A DNA stretch of 31,999 nt from NCBI GenBank assembly GCA_002686955.1, contig NYZA01000199.1:1-31999 (forward strand), read 5' to 3'. The position numbers and the translations under genes were made by a program. This DNA is from Gemmatimonadota bacterium (GTDB taxonomy: Bacteria > GCA-2686955). Numbering within the stretch: position 1 is the stretch's first letter; each line of letters opens with the position of its first letter. This document shows, piece by piece, positions 6,023 to 18,516 of the stretch. The notes beneath the pieces are model-generated. The model was not told the origin of the DNA. It did no database searches and worked only from the letters and a program-made list of their open reading frames with translations.

Positions 6023-7425
6023 TCGAATCCCATCACTGGAACGAGGAATGCGGTGTTTTCGGCATCGTGGGGCACCCGCGTGCCGCCGAGCTCACCTATC
6101 TTGGTCTCTACGCTTTGCAGCACCGAGGTCAGGAAGGGGCGGGAATCGCTACATTCGATGGGCAGCGCTATCACGAGCACAAGCGTTTGGGCCTGGTGAG
6201 CGACATATTCGATCCGGGTACCTTGGGTCGTCTGGAGGGAAGTAGCGCCGTCGGCCACACGCGCTATTCGACCACCGGATCGACCGTATTGCCGAACGTG
6301 CAGCCCTTGGTGGCGAATCTGCACCACCAGGCGGTTGCGCTCGCCCACAACGGAAATATCGTCGATGCGCGAATGGTGCGCGCGGGCCTCGAGGATGGCG
6401 GCGCGATCTTCCAGACCTCCATGGACTCCGAAGTCGTGCTTCATCTGATGGCGCGTTCGCGACACCGGGAGACCGAGCGACGATTGGCCGATGCGCTGGA
6501 TCGCATCCACGGCGCCCATTCGTTGGTGCTGCTCGCCGGAGACACTCTTTTCGCCGCGAAAGACCCGAAGGGGATCCGCCCGCTGTGCATCGGTGAGCTC
6601 GACAAGGGTGGGTGGATCGTGGCGAGCGAGAGCTGTGCGCTCGATATAGTCGATGCTGGTTTCGTTCGTGAGCTCGATCCGGGGGAGATCGTCGGTTTGG
6701 CTCCCGGCACATCACCGCGAACCGTGCGCCGCGCCCCGGAGGGGGAGCGGGCGGCCTGCATCTTCGAGGCGATCTACTTCACACGGCCCGATTCGATCCT
6801 CTTCGGGCGGACGACCGGAGCGGCGCGCGTGGCCTTGGGACGGCAGCTCGCGGTCGAAGCGCCGGCGCCCGGGGCCGATGTCGTGATCAGTGTTCCCGAT
6901 TCGTCGAACGCGGCCGCGCAGGGGTATTCACAGGAATCAGGAGTTCCCTTGGGCCACGGCCTGATCCGGAATCACTACGTTGGGCGTACCTTCATCAAGC
7001 CTTCGCAAGGTATTCGCGATCTCTCGGCGAGGATCAAATACAACCCGGTGCGAGATGTCGTGCGCGACCGTAGCGTGGTCGTCGTCGACGATTCGATCGT
7101 TCGCGGAACGACAGTGCGGAAGCTCGTGGCGATGGTGCGGTCGGCGGGGGCGCGCGAGGTTCATTTCCGTGTGTCGTCATCTCCGATCGTAGGCCCTTGT
7201 TACTACGGAATCGACACACCTGACGAGCGCGAGCTGATCGGTGCCCGGAATACGATCGATGAAATCGAGAAGATCGTCAGCGCCGATACGCTGCGCTACT
7301 TGTCGATCGAAGGAATGAAGAAGGCGGTCGGCAATGGATCGGGTTTTTGTACGGCCTGTTTCGACCGAGATTACCCCGTCCCGGTAGCCGAGCGGCTCGA
7401 CAAGGCGATTCTGGAGAAGAGCTAG
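6019..7425 (+). CDS. purF: Amidophosphoribosyltransferase
   Basis: PurF makes 5-phosphoribosylamine from PRPP and glutamine, the committed step of purine synthesis. Translation starts at ATG 6019 (ATGA overlap with the preceding gene) and gives 468 residues. The N-terminus MIESHHWNEE precedes CGVFGI, so Cys11 would become the N-terminal nucleophile after propeptide cleavage. Four cysteines match the Bacillus-type [4Fe-4S] ligands: Cys247 (RAACIFE), Cys394 (VGPCYYG), and Cys444 and Cys447 (GFCTACF). The PRPP-binding loop reads VVVVDDSIVRGTT. This is therefore the propeptide-bearing, oxygen-sensitive iron-sulfur type, not the E. coli type. Its stop codon shares one base with the ferredoxin GTG. 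Confidence 0.97.
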   Translation: MIESHHWNEECGVFGIVGHPRAAELTYLGLYALQHRGQEGAGIATFDGQRYHEHKRLGLVSDIFDPGTLGRLEGSSAVGHTRYSTTGSTVLPNVQPLVANLHHQAVALAHNGNIVDARMVRAGLEDGGAIFQTSMDSEVVLHLMARSRHRETERRLADALDRIHGAHSLVLLAGDTLFAAKDPKGIRPLCIGELDKGGWIVASESCALDIVDAGFVRELDPGEIVGLAPGTSPRTVRRAPEGERAACIFEAIYFTRPDSILFGRTTGAARVALGRQLAVEAPAPGADVVISVPDSSNAAAQGYSQESGVPLGHGLIRNHYVGRTFIKPSQGIRDLSARIKYNPVRDVVRDRSVVVVDDSIVRGTTVRKLVAMVRSAGAREVHFRVSSSPIVGPCYYGIDTPDERELIGARNTIDEIEKIVSADTLRYLSIEGMKKAVGNGSGFCTACFDRDYPVPVAERLDKAILEKS

Positions 7426-7631
7426 TGTCACAGTCCGTCGCCACCGAGCTGAGGCCGATCGCAATCGATAGGACTCGCTGCGATCTATGCGGCGCATGTG
7501 CCGGCATGTGCGCTCCCGACTCGATCCGGATCGACCACGCGATGATCGAAGTGGACCAACATAGCTGCACTCTCTGTATGAAATGTGTTCCGACCTGTCC
7601 GGTGACGGCAATCTCCGGGGGCAAGGCGTGA
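7425..7631 (+). CDS. Two-cluster 4Fe-4S ferredoxin
   Basis: A 68-residue cytosolic electron carrier with two complete CxxCxxCxxxC motifs: Cys19/22/25/29 and Cys48/51/54/58. Each last cysteine is followed closely by a proline (CAP, CPV), typical of bacterial-type 2[4Fe-4S] ferredoxins. GTG 7425 is chosen: its first base is the last base of the purF TAG stop, and longer in-frame starts would only read through the purF 3' end. The next gene encodes a geranylgeranyl-reductase-like flavoprotein, so this ferredoxin is its likely electron donor, as in archaea. The ferredoxin stop lies 8 bases before the large palindrome. Confidence 0.93.
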   Translation: MSQSVATELRPIAIDRTRCDLCGACAGMCAPDSIRIDHAMIEVDQHSCTLCMKCVPTCPVTAISGGKA

Positions 7632-7638
7632 TTCCTAA

Positions 7639-7817
7639 GGGTCCGCGCAAGAAAAACTTGTCTTTTTGGTGCCCAGATGTGCCGCAGATCCGGTCGATCG
7701 GTGAGTTCCGAAACCGGAGGAATAGTCGGGCTATTTCGATGATTTCGGAACTCGCCGATCGGCCGGAGATGTGGTGCGGATGGGATGCCAAATGACAAGT
7801 TACTCTTGCGCGGACCC
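7639..7817. repeat. 179-bp imperfect palindrome, two inverted 75-bp units
   Basis: The left arm (7639-7713) and the reverse complement of the right arm (7743-7817) match at about 58 of 75 positions by eye, without gaps. Both begin GGGTCCGCGCAAGA and end with a near-identical block around CGATCGG-GAGTTCCGAAA. The central 29 bases contain a perfect small hairpin, AATAG-TCGGG-CTATT (7721-7735), centred on the same axis (7728). As RNA this would fold into a very long stem. It fills the ferredoxin-reductase gap, and its right arm contains the reductase start codon. A third copy of the 75-bp unit lies at 8995-9069. Confidence 0.93.
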
Positions 7818-8994
7818 TAAGGGCGGCTTCGATGTAGTGGTGGTGGGTGCGGGACCGGCGGGTTCGATGGCGGCGAAGCACGCGGCGGCGAATGGCGCCG
7901 AAGTGCTGTTGCTGGACCGAAAGCGCGACCCCGGCACGCCGGTGCGCTGCGGCGAGGGCGTGAGCGCGGCGGGATTGGCGCAGTACGTCGACCCTCAGCC
8001 GGAGTGGATCTCGGCCGGTATCAAAGGGGCGCGCCTGGTGAGCCCGAGCGGCGTCGCGGTGGAGATCGGTACACTCGGCGCGGGGTATGTTCTCGAGAGA
8101 AAGCTCTTCGACCGGGGACTGATCGAGTTGGCCGCGAAGGCGGGGGCACGGGTGCTCAGCGAAGCGAACGCGGTCGGGTTGCGGCGGGGGAGCGACGGAC
8201 GGATCGCCGGAGTTCGTGTTGTTCGGCGAGGCTCGGAGAGCGTTGTGCCCTGCAAGATCGTAATCGGCGCTGACGGCGTCGATTCTCGGGTCGGCCGGTG
8301 GGCCGGAATCCGCACCGACCTTCGGCTGGCCGATATGGAATCTTGCGCCCAGTATCTGATCGCGGATTGTGAGACGGAGAAGGGCTTCTGCGAGTTCTTT
8401 CTAGGGCGGGATGTGAGCCCGGGGGGGTACGCCTGGATCTTCCCGAAAGGGGATGGGCTCGCGAACGTCGGTCTGGGAGTGTCGGTGAAGGAGGCGCGGC
8501 GGCGCGGATCCGCTATTGAGCACCTCGACCGCTTCATGGAACGACTCGGTCTCTCGGGAAAGATGCTCGGTTTCACCGTGGGCGGCGTGCCGGTCTCGCA
8601 CACCCTCGACACGATAGTGGCCGACAGCGTCATGCTTGCCGGCGACGCCGCCCGTCAGGTCAATCCGATGACCGGCGGCGGGATCTTGACCGGCATGCTG
8701 GGGGGGCAGTTGGCCGGCGAGACCGCCGCCGAAGCGATTCGCGAGGGGGAGGTTTCGGCGCGTGTCCTAGGGCGCTACTCCGAGCGGTGGCACGAACGCG
8801 CGGGCAAGACCAACAAGCGCTGGTATCGGATCAAGGAGGCGGTCGGTCGTTTGCCCGATTCGACGCTGGACGAGACTGCCCGGGTGTTCGAAGGGACCGA
8901 TGCGGCCGATCTCACCCTCTTCAAGATCTTCGCGCGGATCTTCCGGCGGAATCCGAAGCTGATTTGGGATATTCGGCACGTCTTCATGGGGTAA
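7792..8994 (+). CDS. Geranylgeranyl reductase family flavoprotein
   Basis: Members saturate double bonds of isoprenoid chains (archaeal lipids, menaquinone or chlorophyll side chains) using FAD and an external reductant. The 400-residue protein has the N-terminal FAD fold VVVGAGPAG (Gly19/21/24), the family cysteine in VRCGEGVS (Cys53), the YAWIFPKGDGLANVG substrate-cavity motif, and GDAARQVNPMTGGGI for FAD pyrophosphate and ribityl contacts. Residues 1-9 are encoded by the right arm of the palindrome. In-frame starts at 7771, 7780 and 7792 all lie inside that arm, none with a clear ribosome site; ATG 7792 is the closest to the conserved domain. The adjacent ferredoxin parallels Methanosarcina, where the neighbouring ferredoxin feeds the reductase. 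The substrate is unknown. Confidence 0.88.
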   Translation: MTSYSCADPKGGFDVVVVGAGPAGSMAAKHAAANGAEVLLLDRKRDPGTPVRCGEGVSAAGLAQYVDPQPEWISAGIKGARLVSPSGVAVEIGTLGAGYVLERKLFDRGLIELAAKAGARVLSEANAVGLRRGSDGRIAGVRVVRRGSESVVPCKIVIGADGVDSRVGRWAGIRTDLRLADMESCAQYLIADCETEKGFCEFFLGRDVSPGGYAWIFPKGDGLANVGLGVSVKEARRRGSAIEHLDRFMERLGLSGKMLGFTVGGVPVSHTLDTIVADSVMLAGDAARQVNPMTGGGILTGMLGGQLAGETAAEAIREGEVSARVLGRYSERWHERAGKTNKRWYRIKEAVGRLPDSTLDETARVFEGTDAADLTLFKIFARIFRRNPKLIWDIRHVFMG

Positions 8995-9069
8995 GGGTCC
9001 GCGCAAGAATTACCTGTCATCTTGGCGCCCAGATGTGCCGCGGATGTGGTCGATCGGCGGACTTCGAAA
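8995..9069 (+). repeat. Third copy of the 75-bp repeat unit, direct orientation
   Basis: This segment matches the left arm 7639-7713 at about 61 of 75 positions with no gaps, starting GGGTCCGCGCAAGAA and ending CGAAA. It begins at the base after the TAA stop of the reductase gene. No mirrored right half follows: similarity ends at about 9070, where CotH-like coding sequence begins. The reductase gene is therefore bracketed by an inverted copy on its 5' side and a direct copy on its 3' side. Confidence 0.9.
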
Positions 9070-9620
9070 CCACAATCTCCTCCTCCATCGCGATCGTTCC
9101 GGGGGACGGTGGCGAATCCTTCCATGGGATCTCGACAACGTCATGCGGCTCTCGTCGCTTCCGGCGATCTACGGAACGGAGGATGTTCCGGGCCCGGATG
9201 ATCTGCGCAACGGGCTCGTCGATCGCGTGCTGAGCGTCCCTTCGTTCCGTCGCCGCTACCTCGAACGGATGACCGAGCTACTCGATGGACCCTTCGCCAG
9301 CAAGGGCTGCCTGGAGTCGCTCGAGGCTCGGGCTCTCGCCCAGGAAGAGGACGCACGGATCGACGTGGAGAAGTGGACTCGGGAGCGCTTCGATCTGTTT
9401 CTGGCCGAGGTCGACACCTTGATGACGGTGATGGGAGATCGAGAGAGCCATCTCCGGGCTTCGATCGCTTCGTTGATGCCGCCCGCCCGGGTCGATCTTG
9501 CGATCAACGAGCTCGTGATGGCAGGGGACGACACATCGGCCGCAGTGCTGGGGGTGGAGCTCCACTTTCGTGGGCGTTCTCCGATCGATGTCGCCGGCTT
9601 CCACTTGAGCGATGATCCCG
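9069..9620 (+). pseudogene. CotH-kinase / lamin-tail protein, internal remnant
   Basis: The frame reads NHNLLLHRDRSGGRWRILPW then DLDN, the typical CotH spore-coat-kinase-like C-lobe. It continues with PSFRRRYLERMTELLDGPF and a helical tail with EVDTLM. A degraded lamin-tail-domain start follows, with INELVMAGDD and VELHFRGRSPIDVAGFHLSDDPD-like text. The kinase N-lobe, signal peptide and start are absent: upstream of about 9069 the frame runs into the 75-bp repeat. At about 9620 the lamin-tail domain stops abruptly and the sequence becomes the antisense of a beta-helix gene. A GTG at 9035 keeps the frame technically open to 10324, but the part after 9620 is spurious. It is a truncated relic of a secreted protein gene. 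Confidence 0.72.
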
Positions 9621-10540
9621 ATGTCGGAGCGGGTCCCGTTGGCGTACCGATCGGGCCACCGCGGATGCCGGTCGGAGAGGGAGTCGGTGAGCGTGGGATC
9701 TCCCGTATCGATGCAGGGGGAGCCGGGCCGGAGCAGGTAGTCGAAGCGACCGTGGGTGCGGAAACCCGGGTCGGCATCGATATTGCCCTCGCCTGGCCAG
9801 CCGCCTTGGATGTTCGAGTAGGCGAGGATCGGCGCTCCGGCGCTGAGTTCATTCGGTGTGTCGGCCCAGAGGATGCAGTTCGTGAAGGTCGGGTTGGAGC
9901 CCTGGCCGAAGAGCGCGCCGGCATCTTCGAGGGCCGAGTTCTCCGTCAGTGTGCAGTTGTTCAGGGTGGGGGCGGAGTCGAGCGAGTAGAGTCCTGCTCC
10001 TATATTGGCGGTGTTGTTCGTGATGACACAGTTGGCGAGCGTCGGAGAGGCGCTCGCGACGTAATACAATCCTCCTCCGCCTTGGCTGGCCTCGTTCCAC
10101 GAGATTCTGCAGCGACTGACCACCGGTGCCGAGTTCTCACTACAATAGAGTCCGCCGCCGTTGGATGCAGCGTTGTCAATTATGGTGCAGTGCTCTATCG
10201 AGGGAGAGGATTGTTCACAAGTGATGCCGGTACCGCCTTCGGTGATGGTCAAGCCGATGATCGAGGCGGCCAGGTTCGGATCGTGAGGCAGGAACCGGAG
10301 GATGTCCTCGCGCACGCCGTTTAGAACGGTTGCCGCAACGATCTCGGGATTGCGCGGATAGACACTTCGGAGGACGAGGCCCAGTCCGGGGACGGCGAGG
10401 CCCGACTCGTAGTAGGTTCCGGGGAGGACAACGATCGTGTCTCTTTCGCATGCGGCCAGGAGCGCGTCCCGGATCGTCGGAGACTCGGTCGGGACATTGA
10501 TGACGGCAGGCTCCGGAGCTTCGGCATGATGTATCCGGGC
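9616..10540 (-). pseudogene. Secreted parallel beta-helix protein, broken at both ends
   Basis: Minus-strand translation from about 10540 gives VINVPTESPTIRDALLAACE and VLPGTYYESG, the standard opening of secreted beta-helix (pectate-lyase-like) proteins. Repeats such as GGGLYCSENSAP and GAGLYSLDSAPTLNNC follow, then GNIDADPGF, SPCIDTGDP and HPRWPDRYANGTRSDIG. The family ending (AYGG, as in the intact gene at 17371-18516) is lost at about 9618, where antisense CotH sequence begins. No ATG, GTG or TTG in frame precedes the first coil; the frame opens at a stop at 10607-10609, and no signal peptide is encoded. A GTG at 10315 would give a frame ending at 9278, but it starts after the first coil. 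It is probably a dead copy. Confidence 0.75.
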
Positions 10541-17370: not shown

Positions 17371-18516
17371 TCAGGGCAACCAGCCCCCGTTCCCCGGGCC
17401 TCCATAAGCCCCCATGTCGGAGCGCGCGCCGTTGGCGTACCAATTCGGCCACCGTGGGTGCCAGTCGGAGATGCCGTCTTCGATCGTGGGATCTCCGGAA
17501 TCGATGCAGGGAGAGTTGGAAGCGAGCACGTAGTCGTAGCCGTAGATGGAGCGGAAACGAGGATCGGCGTCGATATTCCCCTCACCCGTATGGCCACCCT
17601 CCACGTCGCAGTATCTAAGAACCGGCGTGCCCCCCTCGATTTCGTTCGGATCGTCGCCCCAGAGGATGCAGTTCAGCAGCACGGGTGAAGAATCGGAGCA
17701 GTAGAGCCCTCCTCCGACATCGATGATCGATATGTTTCCCGAGATCGTGCAGTTCGTCAGGGACGGCGAGGAGTCTTCGCAGTAGAGACCACCGCCACGT
17801 CCGCCGGCCATATTCTCGGTGATCAGGCAGCCCGTCAGGATCGGCGAGGCGTTGTAGCAAGTGACGCCGCCGCCGTGGAAATCTCTTCCGTTGCCCGTGA
17901 TCGTGCAGCGAATGAGACTCGGCGACGAGGAGCTGGAACAGGCAACTCCCGCCTCGTTGTTTCCGACAATCGTGCACTCTTTCACCAGCGGTGATGAGGA
18001 GGACTGGCAAGCGATCCCGGAGCCGTAGGACTGATCCGCGGAGCCGATCACACACTTCGAGATCGTGGGAGAGGAATCCTCGCAGTCGATCTCATTCCAC
18101 GCGCCGAGCTTGATCACGCACTCGGTGATGGTCGGAGAGGAGGAGCTCTCACAGCAGATACCGGACTGGCAAGGTCGGGGGGGGCCCCAGTCGCCGGCCC
18201 AGCTGATGGTGAACCCGCTCACGATCGATGCCGCGCTTTCGCCGCTGTGGAAATAGAGCCCGCCGCCATCCCAATCGCAATCGATTTCCGTGCCTTCGGC
18301 GCCGGCCTCCGAGACCAACACACGATCCACTCCGCCGAAATCGAGGTTCTTGTCCCCCTCGGCGGTGTAGGTCCCCGGAGCGACGAGCACGGTGTCGCCC
18401 TCTCCAGCGGCGTTCAGACCTGCTTGAATGGTAGGTTCGTCGCCGGGCACTCGGATCGTCGTGGCGTGGGCGGTGGCGACGAGAACGAGAGCAAGGGCTA
18501 ATTCTCGATAGCACAT
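17371..18516 (-). CDS. Secreted right-handed parallel beta-helix protein
   Basis: A 381-residue exported protein, intact. AGGAGG (18523-18528 on the plus strand, read in reverse) precedes ATG 18516 by 6 bases. A signal peptide (LALALVLVATAHA, residues about 6-18) is followed by TIRVPGDEPTIQAGLNAAGE and DTVLVAPGTY, the standard first coil. Then come about nine coils of 20-25 residues with Cys-Ser-rich turns (CESSSSPTI, CQSSSSPLV, CSSSSSPSL, CEDSSPSL). The cap contains NIDADPRFR, SPCIDSGDP and RSDMGAYGG. Such folds bind or cleave polysaccharide, but no pectate-lyase catalytic residues are recognisable, so an enzyme role is not claimed. It is a paralogue of the broken gene at 9616-10540. Confidence 0.9.
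   Translation of the reverse strand: MCYRELALALVLVATAHATTIRVPGDEPTIQAGLNAAGEGDTVLVAPGTYTAEGDKNLDFGGVDRVLVSEAGAEGTEIDCDWDGGGLYFHSGESAASIVSGFTISWAGDWGPPRPCQSGICCESSSSPTITECVIKLGAWNEIDCEDSSPTISKCVIGSADQSYGSGIACQSSSSPLVKECTIVGNNEAGVACSSSSSPSLIRCTITGNGRDFHGGGVTCYNASPILTGCLITENMAGGRGGGLYCEDSSPSLTNCTISGNISIIDVGGGLYCSDSSPVLLNCILWGDDPNEIEGGTPVLRYCDVEGGHTGEGNIDADPRFRSIYGYDYVLASNSPCIDSGDPTIEDGISDWHPRWPNWYANGARSDMGAYGGPGNGGWLP

Follow-up and report, generated by a model that had tools for sequence, protein, structure and literature searches.

A short palindromic element was found inside the start of a reductase gene in the window (the whole 31,999-nucleotide stretch analysed here), which is the entire contig C199 of a Gemmatimonadota genome of 4.28 Mb in 270 contigs (84.5% complete). 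The layout of the insertion is evident in the sequence (Table 1), and from it I infer a coupled translation. A short non-autonomous transposable palindrome would have entered the reductase gene behind its third codon, with TAA duplicated in the process. Ribosomes leaving the ferredoxin gene would restart at the old GTGA and translate a leader ORF. This translation would take the left arm out of pairing and melt the hairpin, and termination at the ATGA followed by reinitiation would produce a reductase with MTSYSCADP replacing MIP. Taken as a whole, this explanation (element insertion, a leader through the hairpin, and an ATGA restart of the reductase) is quite probable.

Table 1. Features of the ferredoxin-reductase locus (positions in the window)
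Feature	Position	Strand	Remark
4Fe-4S ferredoxin gene	7425..7631	+	GTG 7425 overlaps purF TAG (TAGTG)
Leader ORF, 55 aa, from GTG 7628 through the palindrome	7628..7795	+	stop TGA 7793-7795
Target-site duplication, left copy TAA	7636..7638	.	
Candidate MITE-like palindromic element, long class	7639..7817	.	179 bp, near-perfect palindrome
ATGA: leader stop over in-frame reductase ATG	7792..7795	+	
FAD oxidoreductase of the geranylgeranyl-reductase family (400 aa if begun at ATG 7792)	7792..8994	+	
Target-site duplication, right copy TAA	7818..7820	.	
Lone left-arm remnant of the palindrome family	8992..9071	.	83% identical to 7636-7715

The element runs from GGGTCCGCGC to GCGCGGACCC, and these termini coincide exactly with the 179-bp palindrome described in the initial annotation, with a TAA on both sides. 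Its two 92-nt arms show 75% complementarity, and a 5-nt spacer separates them. The predicted RNA fold has an energy of -142.1 kcal/mol, against -75.3 kcal/mol in shuffled sequences (z -14.9), and none of the 200 shuffles matched this stability. The start of the reductase is thus buried in a very long predicted RNA stem, as had been proposed, since its usable start codons lie in the right arm. Without the left arm, the start region folds more weakly than its shuffles (z +2.0). An Rfam search of positions 6800-9300 gave no match at E values up to 1.

The reductase scores 229.6 bits against TIGR02032 (cut-off 158.8) and has a Pfam match to GGR_cat. Apart from ATG 7792, longer starts are possible at GTG 7771, GTG 7774, and ATG 7780, while the next in-frame GTGs were excluded because they already belong to the conserved VVVVGAG motif that binds FAD. 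All four usable starts are in the right arm, so this part of the initial annotation stands; the original GTG 7628, however, persists upstream and opens a separate frame of 55 codons. Counted from ATG 7792, the first nine residues, MTSYSCADP, are encoded by the element, and similarity to orthologues begins at residue 12-13. The derivation of residues 1-9 from the repeat was borne out.

The frame of GTG 7628 reads VIPKGPRKKNLSFWCPDVPQIRSIGEFRNRRNSRAISMISELADRPEMWCGWDAK. It takes in the left arm, the loop, and the greater part of the right arm before it stops at AAATGA (7790-7795), whose ATG opens MTSYSCADPKGGFDVVVVGAG in frame with the reductase. An upstream stop codon overlapping a downstream start codon, the mark of translational coupling, is thus present. 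The insertion adds 182 nt (the element plus one TAA) and shifts the frame by -1; since the ATG lies -1 from the frame of the TGA, the restart is exactly in phase. The coupling of the ferredoxin and the reductase would now consist of two successive overlaps, GTGA and ATGA. It is known that the 4-nt ATGA/GTGA overlap is the commonest coupled overlap in prokaryotes, and that reinitiation requires genes to overlap or to be separated by a very small gap and falls steeply with distance (PMC10666635).

In several distant bacteria (L095-L111), as in the window (7425-8994), a ferredoxin-like, CP-rich frame precedes a geranylgeranyl-reductase-like gene, which suggests that the two are an old functional pair. 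The half copy at the other end of the reductase gene begins with a TAA that is the reductase stop codon. It lies directly 3′ of the reductase, so that copies with the same orientation bracket the gene at both ends. Two long ORFs elsewhere in the window, 9278-10315 (-) and 17371-18516 (-), contain related repeats (265 nt at 72%, and 40-nt units) and resemble secreted parallel beta-helix proteins.

The empty site was found in the nearest relative, the one other genome of the same family that was compared (G001; reductase record JALXCG010000851.1, 70% identical). Its locus (L094) has the same order, purF-ferredoxin-reductase, with no palindrome; the reductase start shares an ATGA with the ferredoxin stop, and the reductase N-terminus is MSAAVTYDLVVVGAG. 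When the element and one TAA are removed from the window, GTG 7628, which overlaps the ferredoxin TGA, reads MIPKGGFDVVVVGAG; the rejoined sequence has GGC AAG GCG TGA over GTG ATT CCT AAG GGC GGC TTC GAT, a GTGA overlap. The rejoined reductase starts with V/M-IPKGGFDVVVVGAG, with six residues ahead of the aromatic-Asp pair (FD/YD), and MSAAVTYD of the relative likewise has six. Since the rejoined flanks match the layout of the relative, the insertion has split codons 1-3 from the rest of the reductase gene. Distant orthologues also start near the aromatic-Asp motif and lack the element-encoded residues. The initial annotation had named the same N-terminal residues in relatives with no palindrome as an observation that would refute it; the orthologues do not show them.

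Is the palindrome found elsewhere in this genome? At least 40 near full-length matches (80-93% identity) were detected, along with many short or single-arm copies, and the 14-base end motif occurs at 150 places with at most one mismatch, against 4 for its backward control. From the fetched loci, I catalogued 51 complete copies spread over many contigs, a lower bound for the genome. Most fall into two size classes, 17 of 86-98 bp and 32 of 176-180 bp; the others are single copies of 151 bp and 75 bp. An exact 3-bp target duplication flanks 25 of the 51, whereas 10,000 shuffles of the flanks gave 8.8 on average and never more than 19. The duplicated triplets are TAA (10), TTA (6), TCA (3), and TGA (1), and the remaining five are AAA (2), CAA, TTT, and ATA. 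The duplication is 3 bp long, since 4 bp are common to both flanks in only 2 of 50 copies, and the favoured target resembles C-TNA-G. With TNA-type duplications and no transposase ORF of its own, the palindrome can be classed as a MITE-like element. Its other properties are those of MITEs, namely terminal inverted repeats (93% pairing at the 25 outer pairs scored in 32 copies), a small size (75-180 bp) with no transposase, and many dispersed copies (at least 51). The genome-wide count that had been proposed as a check thus returned at least 51 complete copies. At L003 (contig C17:57829-58032), a second element end adjoins a complete copy and a single TTA is common to both, an arrangement of two back-to-back insertions.

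A driving transposase was sought in the same genome by profile searches. PF01797 (Y1, RAYT-like) gave one match, on contig C59, with no element ends nearby. An identity with REP/REPIN-RAYT systems was rejected, as this sole Y1 transposase is not flanked by the palindrome family. PF01609 matched two loci, both devoid of element ends, and PF13586 and PF13359 had no matches. No transposase with the ends of the family (GGGTCCGCGCAAGAATAACTTGTC), including an IS5-family DDE transposase, was found in the 84.5% complete genome, and no inward-facing pair of end motifs at IS spacing was seen among the first 100 of the 150 places listed. The case for mobility is accordingly one of copy number and target duplications. 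One locus on contig C75 (L187) has a seemingly broken transposase remnant with a weak PF01609 match and two 18-nt direct repeats, GAGTCAGCCGAAC(T/G)AAAA, which are unlike the palindrome ends. Beyond this genome, the element had no match in 97 other genomes and was absent from viral contigs (exact pattern), plasmids, and phages; in the nearest relative, the end motif was not in excess over the backward control.

Empty sites were then examined over all copies, together with Pfam checks of the neighbouring genes. The same insertion layout was found in at least three further genes, encoding EF-G2, a histidine kinase, and a methyltransferase. In the histidine kinase gene (L004), the flanking ATG reads MR/KGRRRFGLDLPRLSS (MR/KGRRRFG; the slash marks the insertion point), and its overlap with the upstream gene, TGATG, is also present in the relative. 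The EF-G2 gene (L019), a paralogue of the main EF-G gene located elsewhere in the genome, reads MFAPAT/KLRNIGVAAHIDAGKTTT, with the flanking ATG nine codons ahead of NIG, the same distance as in the relative. The methyltransferase (L027) reads MPTHVLTEPP/ELDWNRYYD. The break points in the four genes lie after codons 2-10, and the element entered in one common phase; the chance of four insertions agreeing in phase is about 1/27. The leaders of the reductase (L001), histidine kinase, and methyltransferase genes terminate on ATGA. The L019 copy has a 1-nt deletion, and its leader stops about 10 nt before the in-frame ATG, which is preceded by GAGGTG, with no overlap. In EF-G2 of both L019 and the relative (L213), TANNNT lies 8 nt before the ATG (TAGGCT and TAAACT, respectively), which suggests that the EF-G2 mRNA may be leaderless in both species.

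A 180-bp copy in a lipoprotein gene (L025) is in phase 1 and was excluded from the four cases; it may be translated through in frame. Pfam scans of 30 ORF stretches across empty sites revealed three with a domain, none interrupted mid-domain. Two of these three, the BtpA (L176) and MazG (L024) genes, meet the copy at their 3′ end. The transketolase (L174) and cytidylate-kinase-like (L180) genes beside copies probably keep their own starts. Next to genes that Pfam recognises, copies therefore occupy either the start or the end of the gene and do not interrupt a domain. This placement fits a selection filter in which only rescuable insertions survive; the EF-G2, histidine kinase, and methyltransferase genes would have been hit alike because only near-start insertions in the rescuable phase leave a working gene. 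The capture of a mobile palindromic element as a 5′ end, one of the suggestions in the initial annotation, thus gained support from the copy number, the 3-bp duplications, the empty site of the relative, and the three parallel cases.

The pairing of the arms has been maintained among the 32 long copies. Standard pairs make up 95.8% of the paired cells, compared with 92.0% in shuffled controls and about 40% when slid. Both sides have changed at 26 of 70 pairs, and the covariation score, in which the relatedness of copies is ignored, is 0.215 against 0.141 for shuffled data. The subfamilies diverge in the terminal 18-28 nt, with both arms still matched. The hairpin may be under selection, and exchange between the arms can also keep them paired. 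In the methyltransferase copy (L027:1505-1683), one arm has acquired, in its outer part, the sequence type of its partner, which points to conversion or template switching between the two.

The same insertion may have had other consequences for the reductase. Its translation may begin independently at a ribosome-binding site and start codons supplied by the element, with no need for the leader. Such initiation is possible because weak Shine-Dalgarno-like matches are present: GGAG and GGATGGG precede several in-frame reductase starts, and the predicted anti-Shine-Dalgarno duplexes before ATG 7792 and ATG 7780 have energies of -6.2 to -6.6 kcal/mol. The L019 copy also favours it and is a case against coupling at the start, as its leader ends ahead of the start and does not overlap the ATG behind GAGGTG. 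However, the duplexes are weak, with energies near those of the top 10% of random 15-mers, and their sites would be paired in the -142 kcal/mol stem when the RNA is untranslated. I consider independent initiation a possibility, though a rather doubtful one. Alternatively, the reductase could be silenced despite its intact frame, as a recent, undecayed pseudogene inactivated by the insertion. The ancestral start now reads elsewhere than the reductase, as such a pseudogene would predict. Still, the 400 codons are intact with conserved motifs, the window copy has its own changes relative to the consensus, and three other genes have intact frames in the same configuration; this makes a pseudogene very improbable.

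The palindrome might instead be a regulatory device, either a translational switch or an RNase III site separating the reductase from the purine operon, both of which had been raised in the initial annotation. The very stable hairpin and the compensatory changes that keep its pairing across copies speak for a device of this kind, and Neisseria NEMIS is a known MITE whose RNA is processed by RNase III (PMC2229807). Against it, Rfam gave no match, and the same element accompanies the unrelated EF-G2, histidine kinase, methyltransferase, and lipoprotein genes, so a gene-specific switch is not indicated. The start does lie in a stem; yet the frame of the old start passes through this stem and ends on the new start, which makes constitutive coupling a likelier outcome than a switch. 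I regard a regulatory device as improbable. An assembly artefact at a repeat also had to be weighed, as this is a metagenome-type assembly of 270 contigs, some of which end in the repeat. Misassembly of the palindrome is nevertheless unlikely because the flanks match the operon of the relative and the target duplication is clean: both flanks continue the relative's gene order with an exact TAA duplication, and joining them restores the ancestral start. Artefact is accordingly the least credible of all the explanations, with next to no probability.

How does the insertion with its ATGA restart compare with known systems? Protein-coding palindromes such as the Rickettsia RPEs, and fusions of MITEs with ORFs, have already been described (PMC2229807, PMC10969869). 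Like RPEs and the Wolbachia palindromes, which are many-copy palindromes of about 105-150 bp inside protein genes, the present element combines structure and coding (PMC2229807, PMC10969869). RPEs are in-frame protein inserts, whereas the four clearest cases here break the frame and restart via the element's ATGA; the family also has clear target duplications and comes from a single genome in a lineage unrelated to theirs. Assignment to the RPEs was rejected for the window copy, as it adds 182 nt with a restart at ATG 7792 instead of an in-frame peptide, and the only possible in-frame, RPE-like case is L025. The element resembles the MITEs Correia/NEMIS, ERIC, RUP, and YPAL in its size (about 100-200 bp), long stem-loop, high copy number, lack of a transposase, and ORF fusions, and several of these also have a target duplication. 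It differs from them in the 3-bp TNA duplication (versus TA), in its termini, and in the insertion at gene starts with a restart. The IS1031 group of the IS5 family inserts at TNA with a 3-bp repeat (PMC12016507), a likeness to the palindrome that concerns the target only. REP/REPIN sequences with RAYT are likewise multi-copy imperfect palindromes; in contrast to REPs (20-40 bp), the present family has 3-bp duplications and does not flank the Y1 transposase. The -4 overlap is that of ATGA/GTGA coupling, the commonest coupled arrangement in prokaryotes (PMC10666635), but unlike ordinary coupling, it is located on a mobile element and cancels the frame shift that the element causes on insertion. 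No element with an internal stop-start overlap of this kind was found in PMC2229807, PMC10969869, or the searches made of open-access papers. Thus, a frame-correcting stop-start inside a protein-coding palindrome appears to be new.

The ATGA rescue would work in both orientations of the consensus, and of the 18 copies with a length of 179 bp, 13 are open as far as the ATGA in one direction and 13 in the other, although all derive from one ancestor sequence. It is conceivable, though unlikely, that such self-healing insertion is itself under selection and not a fortunate by-product, with an outward ATGA in each arm and a long-class length at which the ATGA exactly undoes the frame shift. If this were true, insertion at a gene start in one phase would automatically restart the gene. 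On the preferred reading of insertion and coupled restart, housekeeping genes can take up a structured mobile element in their first codons and survive, as the stop-start overlap that the element supplies would restore the frame and keep the coupling to the upstream gene. The reductase, EF-G2, histidine kinase, and methyltransferase genes would be four natural cases for leader translation that opens a 180-nt hairpin and restarts a gene, and in such genomes predicted gene starts may stem from repeats.
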